A stretch of DNA of 56,536 nucleotides, from assembly GCA_024400305.1 (NCBI GenBank), contig JAKSMX010000017.1, forward strand, positions 1 through 56,536. The letters are read 5' to 3'. The stretch comes from Bacteroidales bacterium (GTDB taxonomy: Bacteria; Bacteroidota; Bacteroidia; Bacteroidales; F082). The notes under the pieces are model-generated. The model searched no databases, had not been told where the DNA came from, and worked only from the letters and a program-made list of their open reading frames with translations. This document shows, piece by piece, positions 1,116 to 8,600 of the stretch (position 1 is the first letter of the stretch; the number at the start of each line of letters is the position of its first letter). The position numbers were made by a program, and so were the translations under genes.

Positions 1116-1124
1116 TATCTTTGC
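1116..1124 (+). promoter_or_regulatory. Promoter -7 element for the structured RNA / zinc-ribbon unit
   Basis: TATCTTTGC is a perfect match to the Bacteroidota sigma-ABfr -7 consensus TAnnTTTG plus C. Transcription would start around 1130 and read through the structured segment. The -33 element is weak. Confidence 0.6.
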
Positions 1125-1211
1125 ACGTTGTAATTTTTTAATTGATAATTATATACGAAGAAAGAAATAGAATAAACTAAGATATTGTATAACATAGCGT
1201 TTGCTGCTATT

Positions 1212-1402
1212 CGGAATCGTCTGAAATGTGAGAAGTTTCTAAATGATTAATACCCGAAGAAAGTTGTAAATGCCTGCGCCTTGGGCGTGGGCTTGACTTT
1301 GGGTATTAGGGCATCTTCTCACAGCCTCAGATGATAAAGTTAAGGTTCACGCCTTTCTTTATGTCCGTTCTGATGTGATGGCAACTGCTTAACATAAAGC
1401 AG
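1212..1402 (+). ncRNA. Candidate structured RNA (nested long hairpin plus alternative 3' hairpins)
   Basis: Nested complementary segments can be read directly. They are 1217-1224 with 1327-1334 (8 pairs, one G-U), 1228-1235 with 1315-1322 (8 pairs), 1248-1259 with 1297-1308 (12 pairs, one G-U), and an apical hairpin 1272-1280 with 1284-1292 (9 pairs, two G-U). A lopsided internal bubble separates the second and third stems. Downstream, 1357-1364 can pair with 1392-1399 (CTTTATGT/ACATAAAG), and 1385-1390 with 1397-1402 (CTGCTT/AAGCAG); these two are mutually exclusive, as in a switch. The rod-with-bubble shape recalls 6S RNA, but I do not recognise the sequence as a known family. It could equally be a cis leader element of the zinc-ribbon gene. 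Confidence 0.55.
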
Positions 1403-1474
1403 GGAAGCCGAAAACTGCATAAAAGAGTAGGCATAAACAAAAAGTTGTGCCCGACACGAATTAGGGATAAAGAA

Positions 1475-1705
1475 ATGAAAAATTACCAGTGTAAAAAATG
1501 TGGCACTTTGATTCAAAGTGAAAAAACACCAAGTTCATTTAATTGCCCCAAAGGAGGTATGCATCAATGGCAAGACTTGGGAGAAGTGGGTACTGACACT
1601 TACCAATGCAAAAAATGTGGACTTATTGTTAACAGCAAGAAAACACCAAGTTCTTTTGGTTGCACATCTGGCGGTATGCATCAATGGAACAAATTGAATC
1701 GTTAA
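1475..1705 (+). CDS. Small tandem zinc-ribbon protein (two CxxC...C repeats)
   Basis: A 76-residue protein made of two near-identical ~35-residue units. Each reads CKKCG, a spacer with KTPSSF, then a Cys three residues on (NC / GC), then GGMHQW. CxxC plus a distant Cys and a His per unit suggests one zinc site per repeat. The start is taken at ATG 1475, because an upstream TTG (1445) adds ten poorly structured residues. The gene sits 55 bp upstream of the DUF262 restriction protein on the same strand and probably shares its transcript, with the structured RNA as leader. No function is known to me. A single-zinc adaptor or RNA/DNA-binding role is inference only. No catalytic motif is visible. 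Confidence 0.75.
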   Translation: MKNYQCKKCGTLIQSEKTPSSFNCPKGGMHQWQDLGEVGTDTYQCKKCGLIVNSKKTPSSFGCTSGGMHQWNKLNR

Positions 1706-1760: not shown

Positions 1761-3482
1761 ATGGAAACACTTACTATTCAAAAACTTTTCGATGCAAAAA
1801 ATCGGAAGTTTGAAATACCCGCTTATCAACGTTCGTATAGTTGGGGTAAAGAACAAATTATGCAATTCATTGAAGATTTGAAAAATGCATCAAACAAATA
1901 CTACTTGGGGCATTTCTTGTTTGAACAGCCCAACGAAAATACCTTGCAAATAATTGATGGTCAGCAACGACTTACCACTTGCGTCATCTTTTTCAGTTCG
2001 ATGTACAATGAATTGAGCAATAGAAAACAACAAGGAGAAGTTATCGTTGTTGATTTAGACGACATCAAGGATTATTACATACGCGACATACGCAAGCAGA
2101 CGCAAAAATTCAGAACCGTTGAGTACGATAACAACTTTTTTGTGGACGAAGTAATCAATCAAAAGAAGAACGCTCAAGAGCCCTCAACGCTTTCACAAAA
2201 GCACATTCGCGAGGCAAAAACCTTGTTTGATGAGGAATTTGCAAAAATCCCGACAGAAACGCTTGAGCAATGGTATAATTTAGTTCAAAATGCCACCATC
2301 ACGCAATTCGTAGTGTCCGACAAAGCAGAGGCCGCACAGATTTTCGCCTTCCAAAACGACCGTGGCAAGGCATTATCGAAATTAGACAAAATCAAGTCGT
2401 ACTTTATGCTTCAGGTTTATCTCCTTTCCGGAAACGATGACCTTATCAACGAAAATATTAAGTACCTTGAAAGTGAGTTTGAAACAATTTATCAACGCAT
2501 TGTGATGGTTGATGAAAAAGAAGACGAGGTGCTGAACCATTATTGGCGTGCTATCAGTGGGAAAGGCTTTTATAGCGATGATGTGGTTGATGGCGTAAAG
2601 ACTGCTATCGCAAACCAATTGGAGAAGATTGATTGGATCAAAGATTTCGTTGCGGGTATCTCGCAGGCATTTGAAACTGTTTACAAGGTAAAACAAAGCA
2701 AATATAGTTACATCACCGACCTTTTCTATCTCAATAATATGGCTTTGGCATATCCGTTCTTCATCAAAGCCGATAGATGCAAGGCAAGTGAAAATACGTT
2801 CAACCGCATGGCTCGTTTCCTTGAAAACATTACCTTCCGTAGTTTGCTGCGTGGTGGACGTGCCGATGTTGAAAGTCGTTTCAATTGTATTCTCAACAAT
2901 TTGAACATTAAAGATGACAAATCTTTAAACGACAGTATCAATTGGATGATAGATAGAATCAAAAATGATTGGTGGTGGGGCTATTGGAGCGACAACGAAA
3001 TGATACGTTGTGTTGATTCGGGTTGGTTCTACAAAAATCGTGTTGATAATTATCTTCTATGGAAATATGAGTTGTATTTGTGCAACGAGAACCATCCTAT
3101 GCCACACAAAGTTAAGTTCAGTGATTTAATTCACAACGAAAGCATTGAACATATCGCACCCCAAACGCCGACAAATGGAAATCCCGTTGCAAACGGATAT
3201 GGTGAGTATGAAGGTAATGACGGCATTGTGTCCGGTGATTGGTTGAACTGCGTTGGCAATCTTATGCTAATTTCGCAATCGCATAATAGTTCAATCGGCA
3301 ATAAGCCATTTGCTGACAAATTGGCTTCGTATGGTAAGGATAATCTGCTCAACCAACAAAAAGAAATCATTGATTTTGTTGAAAATAAGGACAATCCTAT
3401 TTGGAATAGAGCAGCTATTGAAAAACGACACAATAAAATCAAAGATGCTGTGAAGGATATTTGGAACTTGGAAACAATTTGA
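1761..3482 (+). CDS. DUF262/DUF1524 (GmrSD-like) restriction-type protein
   Basis: 573 residues. The N-terminal DUF262 domain has the signature IPAYQRSYSW (residues ~19-28) and DGQQRLTT (~66-73), the ParB-like nucleotide-handling motif of GmrS/BrxU-type restriction proteins. The C-terminal DUF1524 HNH-type nuclease domain shows SIEHIAPQTP (~461-470), then WLNCVGNLMLIS and the conserved N-x-x-x-G-N-K-x-F region. Single-chain proteins of this layout are predicted type IV-like restriction enzymes acting on modified (for example glycosylated) phage DNA. The modification specificity cannot be read from sequence. The start is the ATG at 1761; an upstream in-frame TTG at 1725 is less likely. It follows the zinc-ribbon gene by 55 bp. 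Both domains look intact, so the protein may be active. Confidence 0.85.
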   Translation: METLTIQKLFDAKNRKFEIPAYQRSYSWGKEQIMQFIEDLKNASNKYYLGHFLFEQPNENTLQIIDGQQRLTTCVIFFSSMYNELSNRKQQGEVIVVDLDDIKDYYIRDIRKQTQKFRTVEYDNNFFVDEVINQKKNAQEPSTLSQKHIREAKTLFDEEFAKIPTETLEQWYNLVQNATITQFVVSDKAEAAQIFAFQNDRGKALSKLDKIKSYFMLQVYLLSGNDDLINENIKYLESEFETIYQRIVMVDEKEDEVLNHYWRAISGKGFYSDDVVDGVKTAIANQLEKIDWIKDFVAGISQAFETVYKVKQSKYSYITDLFYLNNMALAYPFFIKADRCKASENTFNRMARFLENITFRSLLRGGRADVESRFNCILNNLNIKDDKSLNDSINWMIDRIKNDWWWGYWSDNEMIRCVDSGWFYKNRVDNYLLWKYELYLCNENHPMPHKVKFSDLIHNESIEHIAPQTPTNGNPVANGYGEYEGNDGIVSGDWLNCVGNLMLISQSHNSSIGNKPFADKLASYGKDNLLNQQKEIIDFVENKDNPIWNRAAIEKRHNKIKDAVKDIWNLETI

Positions 3483-4404: not shown

Positions 4405-4514
4405 ATTCTTGTTACTCAATTTTTATGTCAAAAACTGTTACCGTTTTGTTACTTTGATTATTTGCTACTCAAATAACATCCTGAAATATAGATAATTAAA
4501 CATAAACAATAAAT

Positions 4515-4563
4515 AGCAAACGCTATGATTTATAATATGTTAATTTAAATTTATTTCTGTTTC
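4515..4563 (+). repeat. Direct repeat copy A (AGCAAACGCTATGATTTATA...)
   Basis: Starts AGCAAACGCTATGATTTATA and ends TTATTTCTGTTTCA. It matches copy B (5441-5491) over ~50 bp with a few small indels. Copies A and B bracket the truncated PDDEXK gene. Confidence 0.75.
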
Positions 4564-5407: not shown

Positions 5408-5440
5408 TTATTTCGTTTTTATCTTTCATTTAAATTTGAG

Positions 5441-5491
5441 AGCAAACGCTATGATTTATAAATATGTCTGTTAATTTTTATTTCCGTTTCA
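5441..5491 (+). repeat. Direct repeat copy B (AGCAAACGCTATGATTTATA...)
   Basis: Begins with the same 20-mer as copy A and ends TTATTTCCGTTTCA. A related 13-bp word in inverted orientation (AGCAAACGCTATG read on the minus strand, 1193-1205) lies beside the structured RNA. Confidence 0.75.
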
Positions 5492-5532
5492 CAGAGACGC
5501 TGTCGGCTTCAGGATTTCCCGTTTTCCGACCT

Positions 5533-5541
5533 GCAAAGATA
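5533..5541 (-). promoter_or_regulatory. Leftward promoter -7 element upstream of the PDDEXK remnant
   Basis: TATCTTTGC on the minus strand, a perfect Bacteroidota -7 element. A transcript from here would pass repeat copy B before reaching the truncated nuclease. Confidence 0.55.
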
Positions 5542-5601
5542 CAATTTTTCGGCCATCAATTTATTTTTATGCTGAAGAATTTCTCGTATCGTATTTTTTT
5601 T

Positions 5602-5652: not shown

Positions 5653-8600
5653 ATGAGAAACAACCATTTACGCAGATTATTCGGCATCGGTCTTATCATG
5701 CTGGGAATCGCAACGACAGCCGTCGCTCAGGAAGTCCGCACATTCGAGTTCGGACATAACGGCAAGAACGGCATCAAACTAACAGAACAGACGAGAGGCA
5801 ACGTCGGCATTGAGTTCAATATCAGCGAGATGAGCCTTCAGTCATTCACTTATAAAGGTGAAGAATTACAGTCAATCGGCATTTCGGGCATCTCGCTTCC
5901 GAACGAGAAAGGGTTGCCCAACGTGCCGGCCTACAGCCGTTACATCGCCGTCCCGCAAGGTGCGGAGGCGGTGCTTCGCGTCGTCAGCTACGAGCAGCAG
6001 ACAATCAAGAACGTGAACATCGAGCCGTCGCTCGGCGTGCAGGCGGAAGACGCGGAGCCTGACATGAACTACGTGAAAGACGAGAAAGTGTATTCACAGG
6101 ACGCTTTCTATCCGGCGGAATTCGCGACAGTGAGCGAGCCGACATCGTTGCGCGGCGTTGACGTCGTGGCGTTGAGCATCTCGCCTGTGAGATTCAACCC
6201 GGTCACAAAAGAAGCCATTGTCTATCACAACATTGAGATTGAAGTCGAGTTCATCGGCGGCAACGGACAATTCGGCGACGACCGTCTCCGCTCGCCGTAC
6301 TGGGATCCCATTCTCGCACAAAACATCATGAACTACAACACATTGCCAGTCATCGACTACGAGAAGAGGATGCAGGACTGGGTCCGTGACGGTGCGGAAG
6401 GCGCAGAGTATCTCATCGTCATCCCTAACAACGACGACTTCGAGACACCGGCGGAACGCATGAGGGAATACCGAATGCAGCAGGGCATCATCACGAAAGT
6501 CGTGCGTCTGGATGAGATTCCGGCGACCACGACGGCACAGATGAAGTCATATTTCCACAACGCATACAACACATGGGATATCGCCCCTGTCGCCGTGATG
6601 CTTCTCGCCGACCACAACACCAACATGACGCAGGGCATCCCGGCGGAGACGGTGTCGCACCCGTACGAGGGCAGCTGCATCTCCGACAACCAATACGCCG
6701 ACGTTACCGGCGACCATCTCCCGGAGATGGTGTTCTCACGACTCGTGGCCGCCAACGGCACCGAAGCAGTGATGATGGTTGACAAGCAGATTGAATACGA
6801 GTTCACCAATCCGAACATGGATGCGCACACATACAACGTCCCGGTGACGGCTCTCGGCTGGCAGACGGAACGTTGGTTCCAGCTCTGCTCGGAGGTCGTC
6901 GGCGGTTATTTCCGCGCCCACGGCAAGAACCCATACCGCATCAACTGCATCTACGATGGGACACCGGGGTCAGTGTGGTCATCGGCGACGAACACGTCAC
7001 AGGTGGTGAGTTACTTCGGTCCGAGCGGCACCGGTTACATCCCGCAGACACCGTCAGAGATAGGCGGATTCACGGGCGGACAGCCGGAACAAATCAACGA
7101 AGCCATCAACGCGGGTACTATGATCGTACAGCACCGCGACCACGGACTCGAAACCGGCTGGGGCGAACCTGAATACCGCAACAACAACGTGTCGCAGCTC
7201 ACCAACGTCGGCAAGATGACTTTCGTCATGTCAATCAACTGCCTGACAGGAAAATTCAACAACAACTCACCATGTTTCGCAGAGACATTCATACGTCACA
7301 CATACAACGGACAGAACGCAGGCGCGGTCGGCCTCCTCTGCCCTACTGAAGTCTCCTATTCTTTCGTAAACGACGCCTACGTCTGGGGAGTCTATGACCA
7401 ATTCCAGCCCGACTTCATGCCTGACTACGGCCCTTACGCACCACAGCAGGGCAACTGGCAGCCAGCATTCGGCAACGTCGCCGGCAAATACTTCCTCGCA
7501 CAGAGCTCATGGCCATACAATTACGAGTCAAAAGACATCACATATCAGATGTTCACCGCGCACTGCGACGCATTCCTCCGCCTCTACACTGAAGTGCCGC
7601 AAACGATGACAGTCAACCATCAGCAAGTCCAGATCGCCGGGCTGACGACATTCCAAATCACTGCACCTGAAGGGACAAAAATCGCCCTTACAAAAGGTGA
7701 AGGCGAAAACCTCGAAATCATCGCCGTCGCAGAGGCGACAGGTTCCATGCAGAACATCGAAATCCCGTCACAGACACCACCGACAATCATCAAGCTGACT
7801 GTGACAGGTCAGAATTACATTCGTTATCAGGCTGATGTCGAAGTCGTTCCGGCGGAAGGCCCATACGTAATTGTCAACAGCTTCAGCCTCAGCAACGGAG
7901 CCACACAGCTCAACTTCAGCGATGAAGCAGACTTTGACATCGTCCTGAAGAACGTCGGCGTTGAAACAGCACCTGCGGGTACTGCGACAATATCAACGGA
8001 TTCGGAATATGTCACAATCACCAATCCGACAGTTGACTTCACAAGCATCGCAGCCGACGCGACAACAAACATCGCCGAAGCATTCGGATTCACCGTCTCA
8101 AATAACGTGCCGAACAACACTACAATAGCATTCACCGTGAACATTGAAAGCGGCGGCGACGAATACGAAAGCCACATCAACGTGAAGGCCTACGCACCGA
8201 TATTTGAAATCGGGAATGTCAGCATTGAGGAAATCAGTGGCAACGGCAACGGACGTCTTGACCCTGGCGAGACAGCGAAACTCATATTCCCTATCGAGAA
8301 CAAAGGCGGCGCGGTCTCGGCAGCTGTCGATGCCACACTCGTGATCAACAACAGTTTCATGCAACTCACAAGCGGGCCGACCGTAACAGTCGGAAGCATT
8401 GAGAACGGCGGCAACGCGACAGTCGAATATGTGGTCAATGTCGGCGCAGCGCCATCAGGATTCGCAGCTGAATACACGTTGGACATCGAATCAGGAGCAT
8501 ACGACGCCACAAGAGACTTCACCTCAAAGATCGGCCTTAACGTTGAAGACTTCGAGACCGGCGAACTCAACGCGGACTTATGGTCAAACGACAACACAAA

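Follow-up and report, generated by a model that had tools for sequence, protein, structure and literature searches.

A structured RNA lies at positions 1194-1360 (+) of the DNA analysed here (the window, a whole stretch of 56,536 nucleotides from a Bacteroidales bacterium). The RNA is genuine, one member of a large family, whose covariance model (R1) it matches over the full model positions 1-170 (114.6 bits, E 1.4e-22, filters off). Within the stretches scanned against Rfam and the limits of the literature given below, the family is new but of a known kind, namely, the structured mRNA leader. Reading function from sequence, we lean, without strong conviction, towards a cis-acting transcription attenuator, a riboswitch-like leader of the transcript that encodes a zinc-ribbon-like protein and a GmrSD-type restriction protein.

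The region folds far better than its composition would predict. For 1190-1474 the folding energy is -91.3 kcal/mol, while shuffled versions average -69.2 (sd 4.86), which gives z -4.55; none of 200 shuffles did as well. In the ORF list of the window, no reading frame of 60 aa or more overlaps 1194-1444. A preliminary description of this DNA had reported an unrecognised, strongly structured RNA, and had proposed as checks an Rfam scan that included 6S-Flavo (RF01685) and a search for homologues in Bacteroidota with a covariation test. The cmscan of the window against Rfam 15 gave a sole match, the DUF805b element (RF02914) at 1398-1433 (+), downstream of the fold and separate from 1194-1360 (43.9 bits, cut-off 35.6). 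In 1000-1800 no plausible match for the fold itself appeared even at E <=5, six other lines being far under their cut-offs, and the homologues scanned were without a match as well (14 loci at the gathering cut-off; 20 loci at E <=0.5). The second check found the stems kept by compensatory changes. Folding energy, Rfam status and covariation thus bear out the description on this point; its coordinates, 1212-1402, have to be shifted, the model placing the element at 1194-1360. Earlier computational work in the same phylum also found structured RNAs, among them the motifs Bacteroidales-1, Bacteroides-1 and Flavo-1 (PMC2864571). Those held in Rfam gave no match in the stretches scanned, and the comparison covers these; Bacteroides-2 and GUCCY-hairpin, for which that paper's table gives no accession, fall outside it. 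Searches of the open PubMed Central literature brought up no description of the element, which could still figure as an unnamed candidate in supplementary lists (e.g., among 3161 candidates, PMC8040213).

The family was assembled in two ways. A DNA search over the genomes of 149 relatives, the genome of the window (own genome) included, gave matches in 17, the own genome among them, and 16 of the 17 are of the own genus. A conserved 5' word was searched against a titled genome collection and found in at least 117 contigs; 92 of the 117 word loci were kept and 25 were dropped by eye before alignment as chance matches or contig-end cuts (L077, L122, L127). Alignment A1 and model R1 rest on 58 sequences, 50 from the word search and eight from the DNA search and the window. 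At a threshold of E <=1e-4, with E-values from a short calibration and the own genome counted each time, R1 finds the element in 107 of the 149 relatives; in samples drawn from the order and from the phylum it does so in 144 of 393 and 47 of 395 genomes, respectively. None of 14 outside genomes (13 assigned by title to other phyla and one bacterium without a title) has a match at this threshold; one of them carries a 58-nt match at 2.9e-4. The own genome has 17 matches at E <=0.01, the weakest at 6.9e-6, of which 1194-1360 is one, and a relative has up to 18. Cultured bacteria also carry the RNA, an example being Porphyromonas pasteri JCM 30531 (L129). One R1 search, over 100 sources picked for diversity, also turned up two strong copies in one genome (L060): 5428-5598 and 7693-7861 on the reverse strand, 2.1 kb apart in the same orientation, at 152.5 and 121.4 bits.

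Covariation was counted on a MAFFT alignment, which ignores structure. Over 42 named pairs, 87.4% of cells hold standard pairs, and 353 are double-change cells; shuffling the partners gives 126 such cells on average, and sliding the strands 49-150. These shuffle-based counts are inflated by sequence kinship, and the permutation tests described below (for PK1, H2, the pairing of the 3' strand, GACATA/TATGTC and the held-out members) used sequences less than 80% alike. The held-out set consists of 36 non-redundant members outside the R1 seed. R1 itself was built without H2, H3, PK1 and the alternative helix.

The predicted fold begins with the 5' hairpin H1 (1194-1210). Its letter conservation in A1, like that of one side of the pseudoknot PK1, is partly due to selection, because 50 of the 58 seeds share the word fixed by the search; for PK1 and for the alternative helix the held-out test answers this concern. 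PK1 joins the 5' linker UUCGG (1210-1214) to CCGAA (1254-1258), sharing 1254-1256 with P3. Its cognate value of -5.65 compares with -3.52 on permutation, with none of 1000 permutations as good, nor any of 2000 in the 36 held-out members. P1 (1218-1223 with 1328-1333) is paired in 92.2% of cells and has double changes in all seven pairs. P3 (1248-1256 with 1300-1308) aligns poorly in the MAFFT columns, with 63-65% of cells paired, and still shows double changes in all eight pairs. The P4 arm (1261-1299) comprises a lower helix, 1261-1265 with 1295-1299 (90.1% paired), and an apex, 1272-1280 with 1284-1292 (97.8%). Two hairpins are also part of the junction. H2 (1223-1239, GAAA..UUUC) is paired in 84.1% of cells with 19 double-change cells, and its literal form occurs in 19 of the 36 held-out members. 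Its permutation test was not significant (cognate -1.52, permuted mean -1.36, minimum -1.71) because the H2 letters hardly vary, so H2 rests on the column counts. H3 (1309-1327, GGGC..GCCU) is paired in 95.2% of cells with 24 double-change cells. Across the family it reads GGC..GCC or GGU..ACC, a pattern held in 34 of the 36 held-out members and absent in three of 101 model-aligned members, which by eye retain the stem with other letters. The loops of the two hairpins pair with each other (P2; 1227-1235 with 1315-1323), with 90.6% of cells paired and double changes in six of seven pairs.

The preliminary description had drawn these pairings as one long rod of nested stems. The stems do appear in the minimum-energy fold of 1190-1474; since the flanking stems H2 and H3 covary, however, one of them is better understood as the kissing of two hairpin loops. 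As far as aligned sequences can tell, the element is not a simple rod: P1, P3, P4, two loop-kissing hairpins and a 5' pseudoknot are backed by covariation. The folded strand is the + strand, because G-U cells outnumber A-C cells (189 to 44 in the named pairs, 67 to 3 in the alternative helix). A further closing helix, between GACATA upstream and TATGTC downstream, looked attractive in single members. It was dropped on its permutation result (cognate -5.74, permuted mean -5.22, minimum -6.09), a control window behaving alike.

The 3' strand of P4 has a second conserved partner. Segment X' (1338-1354) can pair with 1283-1298 in 16 pairs with one bulge. This alternative helix is paired in 95.5% of cells, with 22 double-change cells, whereas slid controls reach at most 51.5%, and in the 36 held-out members none of 2000 permutations was as good. 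The two helices, apex and rival, share one strand and are mutually exclusive, and the two conserved rival partners make the predicted arrangement a bistable one. In the window the rival duplex is worth -21.3 kcal/mol (loop cost excluded) against -15.9 for the apex hairpin, which minimum-energy folds at eight growing 3' ends keep throughout, with no switch in such simple folding. X' stands immediately before the U-tract CCUUUCUUU (1352-1360). A run of T4 or more closes the RNA in 131 of 141 loci; the window has an interrupted tract, at which a generic terminator scan makes no call. Many members have a local GUGGA..UCCAC hairpin, which is less conserved (82.4% paired). The 3' strand of the fold can also pair with sequence past the U-tract: in 63 non-redundant members none of 1000 permutations was as good, in the 36 held-out members four of 2000 were, and the window's version is weak (-9.9 kcal/mol). 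In view of the held-out result, this pairing is a feature of part of the family.

A switch-like 3' part, proposed from the window alone, therefore survives in altered form: mutually exclusive helices are conserved, but the conserved pairing is that of 1283-1298 with 1338-1354 and not the two 3' hairpins that had been named. The inverted repeats of those hairpins are present (CTTTATGT/ACATAAAG and CTGCTT/AAGCAG) but by eye are not consistently kept in L011, L012 and L081. The second of them (CTGCTT/AAGCAG) overlaps the stem of DUF805b, an Rfam element already known, at the edge of 1212-1402.

The -7 promoter box has the consensus TAnnTTTG, with TTTG at the -33 distance. We take TATCTTTG at 1116-1123 (+), 78 nt before the start of the RNA, to be a box of this type. 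The promoter had been described as perfect, which it is not: TATCTTTG fits the -7 box, but there is no TTTG at the expected -33 distance from it. Across the family, 92 of 140 loci have such a box within the 170 nt before the RNA, its median position being -66; the frequency is nine of 137 in downstream windows and 26 of 140 on the reverse strand. Of 141 loci, 134 have an ORF on the same strand that begins no more than 350 nt downstream, the median distance from the RNA being 57 nt (105 of the 134 within 0-100 nt, 83 within 35-75 nt). An ORF follows each of the 17 own-genome copies, its start lying 35-75 nt away in only six. The longest upstream reading frame is oriented as the RNA in 75 of 124 loci. 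This geometry is that of a 5' leader, and the suggestion that the RNA might be a cis leader is upheld by the usual nearness of a gene start and by the conserved exclusive helices.

As had been noted from the sequence, a zinc-ribbon gene and a restriction gene lie downstream in the window. The first gene of the predicted transcript, 1475-1705 (+), encodes a small zinc-ribbon-like protein with cysteine pairs, for which DUF7695 is over its Pfam cut-off and the Zn_ribbon_8 and rubredoxin-like models are under theirs. The next, 1761-3482 (+), encodes a GmrSD-type (type IV) restriction protein (GmrSD_N 117.3 bits, GmrSD_C 60.0 bits). This pair is only one of the contexts of the 17 own-genome copies, which also precede D12, type III and C5 DNA methyltransferases, a PLD/SNF2 protein, four small HTH-like proteins (one over the Pfam cut-off), a BspA-type LRR protein and a subtilase; six of the 17 first proteins have no Pfam family over cut-off. 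Tallies over the wider family leave out near-identical proteins: they count 129 of the 134 first genes in the model-found set and 76 of the 85 in the word-search set. Pfam and PADLOC results are counts per family, for the first 25 families, without unions. For the 76 first genes of the word-search subgroup the Pfam counts are EcoRI_methylase 10, N6_Mtase 10, HSDR_N_2 6, DNA_methylase 4 and MethyltransfD12 4. The mix among the 129 is wider, with LRR_5, HSDR_N_2, N6_Mtase and HTH_26 at four each, EcoRI_methylase and the TonB plug at three each, and others.

A strict link to restriction was rejected by the reverse test. The leader was found at five of the 30 best-scoring EcoRI-type methyltransferase loci (one of the five about 490 nt upstream and two at only 29-32 bits) and at none of the 30 best-scoring GmrSD loci; these counts are lower bounds because at several loci the contig breaks off less than 300 nt upstream. 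The leader is thus attached to many kinds of accessory genes, often restriction genes, and is the property of no single family. An earlier suggestion that the RNA may be mobile receives only indirect support from its place before unrelated families and from the fact that most tested relatives of two families are without it. At blastn sensitivity, two queries against 72,556 plasmid records and one against 50,697 phage records gave no match. Ten pattern matches came from viral contigs, three at 22.5-24.6 bits and the rest with nothing at E <=0.01; two look by eye like coding sequence, and phage or plasmid carriage was set aside.

On the upstream side (124 loci, alignment A4), the families shown include DUF1016_N 9, YhcG_C 8, IS1595 4 and Fic 3; of the 25, a single one is a restriction enzyme. 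Genes for YhcG/DUF1016 nucleases (PADLOC class PDC-S02 for the upstream YhcG group) are the commonest annotated upstream neighbour, and the pairing is also seen, as remnants, in the window. There, the 5' part of the leader alone, with its TATCTTTG box, lies at 5441-5560 (-) directly before a YhcG/DUF1016 reading frame that is without the first part of the DUF1016 model and apparently truncated. A second copy of the 5' part alone lies at 4508-4541 (-), just past the end of the YhcG gene. Both fragments look like leader remnants from deletions.

The DUF805b element of the window shares the leader with the fold, scoring over its cut-off, but is distinct from it: it has 35 positions, lies downstream and also occurs without the fold. 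On an own-genome contig (C19:2216-7609, loci L028-L031), four DUF805b elements over cut-off are spaced 0.9-3 kb apart on one strand with no leader fold nearby, the only R1 match of that contig lying elsewhere; short hydrophobic proteins are encoded right after one of the four. The sequence AAAAAGTTGTGCCCGACACG, at about 1439-1461 upstream of the zinc-ribbon gene, recurs before other own-genome genes, with 100% identity over 21-22 nt at two places on contig C17, and also in L249. It is possibly a further start-proximal element.

From the junction with its tertiary contacts, the bistable strand beside a U-tract and the placement before unrelated genes, we infer an attenuator with a sensing domain. 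The features of this type that are found are the 5' leader location, the covarying complex fold and the mutually exclusive helices at the expression platform. Sequence comparison shows P1, H2, the P3-P4 arm and H3 as a junction in which the H2 and H3 loops kiss and the 5' linker makes a pseudoknot with the strand before P4. In the proposed mechanism, when a signal (a small molecule, a protein or an RNA) stabilises the junction, P4 would keep its own strand, and transcription would read through into the gene. When it does not, X' would capture the 3' strand of P4 and, together with the U-tract, end transcription; the direction of the switch is provisional. The local GUGGA..UCCAC hairpin may help termination in many members. 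In a subset, the 3' side of the fold may find a partner beyond the U-tract, which could add a second layer close to the start codon; DUF805b occupies the corresponding stretch of the window. With downstream genes so diverse, a signal common to the cell is more probable than feedback by a gene product. Large-regulon riboswitches offer a parallel. Riboswitches for c-di-GMP are structured 5' leaders present in many copies per genome before diverse genes, including those of surface proteins, and have mutually exclusive helices beside a U-tract. The leader resembles such riboswitches in placement, copy number, gene diversity and exclusive helices by a U-tract. Unlike them, it is matched by no Rfam riboswitch model, and its kissing hairpins and 5' pseudoknot around a long arm make a fold of its own. 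Several observations count against attenuation: the interrupted, uncalled U-tract of the window, an apex hairpin that is kept at all eight growing 3' ends, the lesser conservation of the GUGGA hairpin, the few own-genome copies with a start codon at 35-75 nt, and the lack of a leader in most of the relatives tested from these gene families.

Attenuation has four rivals, which we rank from more to less credible: RNAs that act in trans, a leader that acts on translation or stability, a repeat at the DNA level and 6S RNA. In the first, the main product would be a terminated RNA of about 170-240 nt, one of a set of paralogous sRNAs that act in trans by base-pairing or protein binding, and the genes would follow by read-through or through shared promoters. 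The upstream promoter box and 3' U-tract of most loci would suit such RNAs, as would the copy number in the own genome and its relative, and Bacteroides has families of paralogous sRNAs with 12-15 copies (PMC11697453). The FopS sRNAs described there are, like the leader, a multi-copy Bacteroidales family with its own promoters; by that account, however, their 5' part is single-stranded and bears a seed, with a terminator after it, whereas the 5' part of the leader is folded and covarying, which places it outside the FopS-type definition (PMC11697453). The gene start that usually follows closely on the same strand also argues against action in trans, and the complementarity of a subgroup's post-U-tract sequence to its own 3' side favours a role in cis. 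On balance we regard trans-acting sRNAs as unlikely.

Somewhat less likely again is a leader that protects the mRNA or tunes translation initiation, its U-tract being no terminator. The median distance of the start codon fits such a role, as do the 3'-strand pairing that some members show close to the start codon and the weak U-tract of the window, where no terminator is called. However, the T4+ run placed directly after X' in nearly all loci looks like the requirement of a terminator, and the downstream pairing is weak in held-out members. That the element is a recombination site or mobile-element repeat that only resembles an RNA gene seems highly improbable. The two 5' fragments flanking the apparently truncated YhcG gene, the unrelated downstream genes and the IS1595 transposase domains among upstream neighbours could be read that way, but the wobble pairs are strand-specific and the changes compensatory, and the plasmid and phage records gave no match.

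The preliminary description had likened the rod to 6S RNA, which binds RNA polymerase and templates product RNAs and is present as a stand-alone gene in one or two copies per genome. The leader shares with 6S and 6S-Flavo a rod-like minimum-energy fold with internal loops and a similar length, but it is multi-copy, lies upstream of genes and is matched by no 6S model (none in 1000-1800 at E <=5, and no 6S-Flavo in the own genome at E <=1), and 6S RNAs are not known to have kissing hairpins or a bistable apex; with 17 own-genome copies, each followed by an ORF, 6S identity was rejected and we give a polymerase-binding 6S-like RNA hardly any credence.

What remains is an RNA of 170 nt, strongly covarying, with up to 17-18 copies per genome and found in 144 of the 393 genomes that sample the order, yet without an Rfam match in the stretches scanned. 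Tentatively, and with less assurance than for attenuation as such, it may be a new class of widespread Bacteroidota RNA sensor, in which the kissing-loop/pseudoknot junction reads a shared signal and the bistable apex sets read-through into accessory genes. Candidates for the signal are a nucleotide messenger, an RNA-binding factor and a cue from infection or stress; the targets would include several restriction-modification types, small Cro/C1-like regulators and surface proteins. If the leader is a switch, it points to a signal by which Bacteroidota control their accessory defence and surface genes. For restriction-modification, this would touch the old question of the timing of modification and restriction in a new host, and would make it testable on one leader RNA. 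If the sensor view is true, defence and surface genes would form one RNA-controlled regulon.
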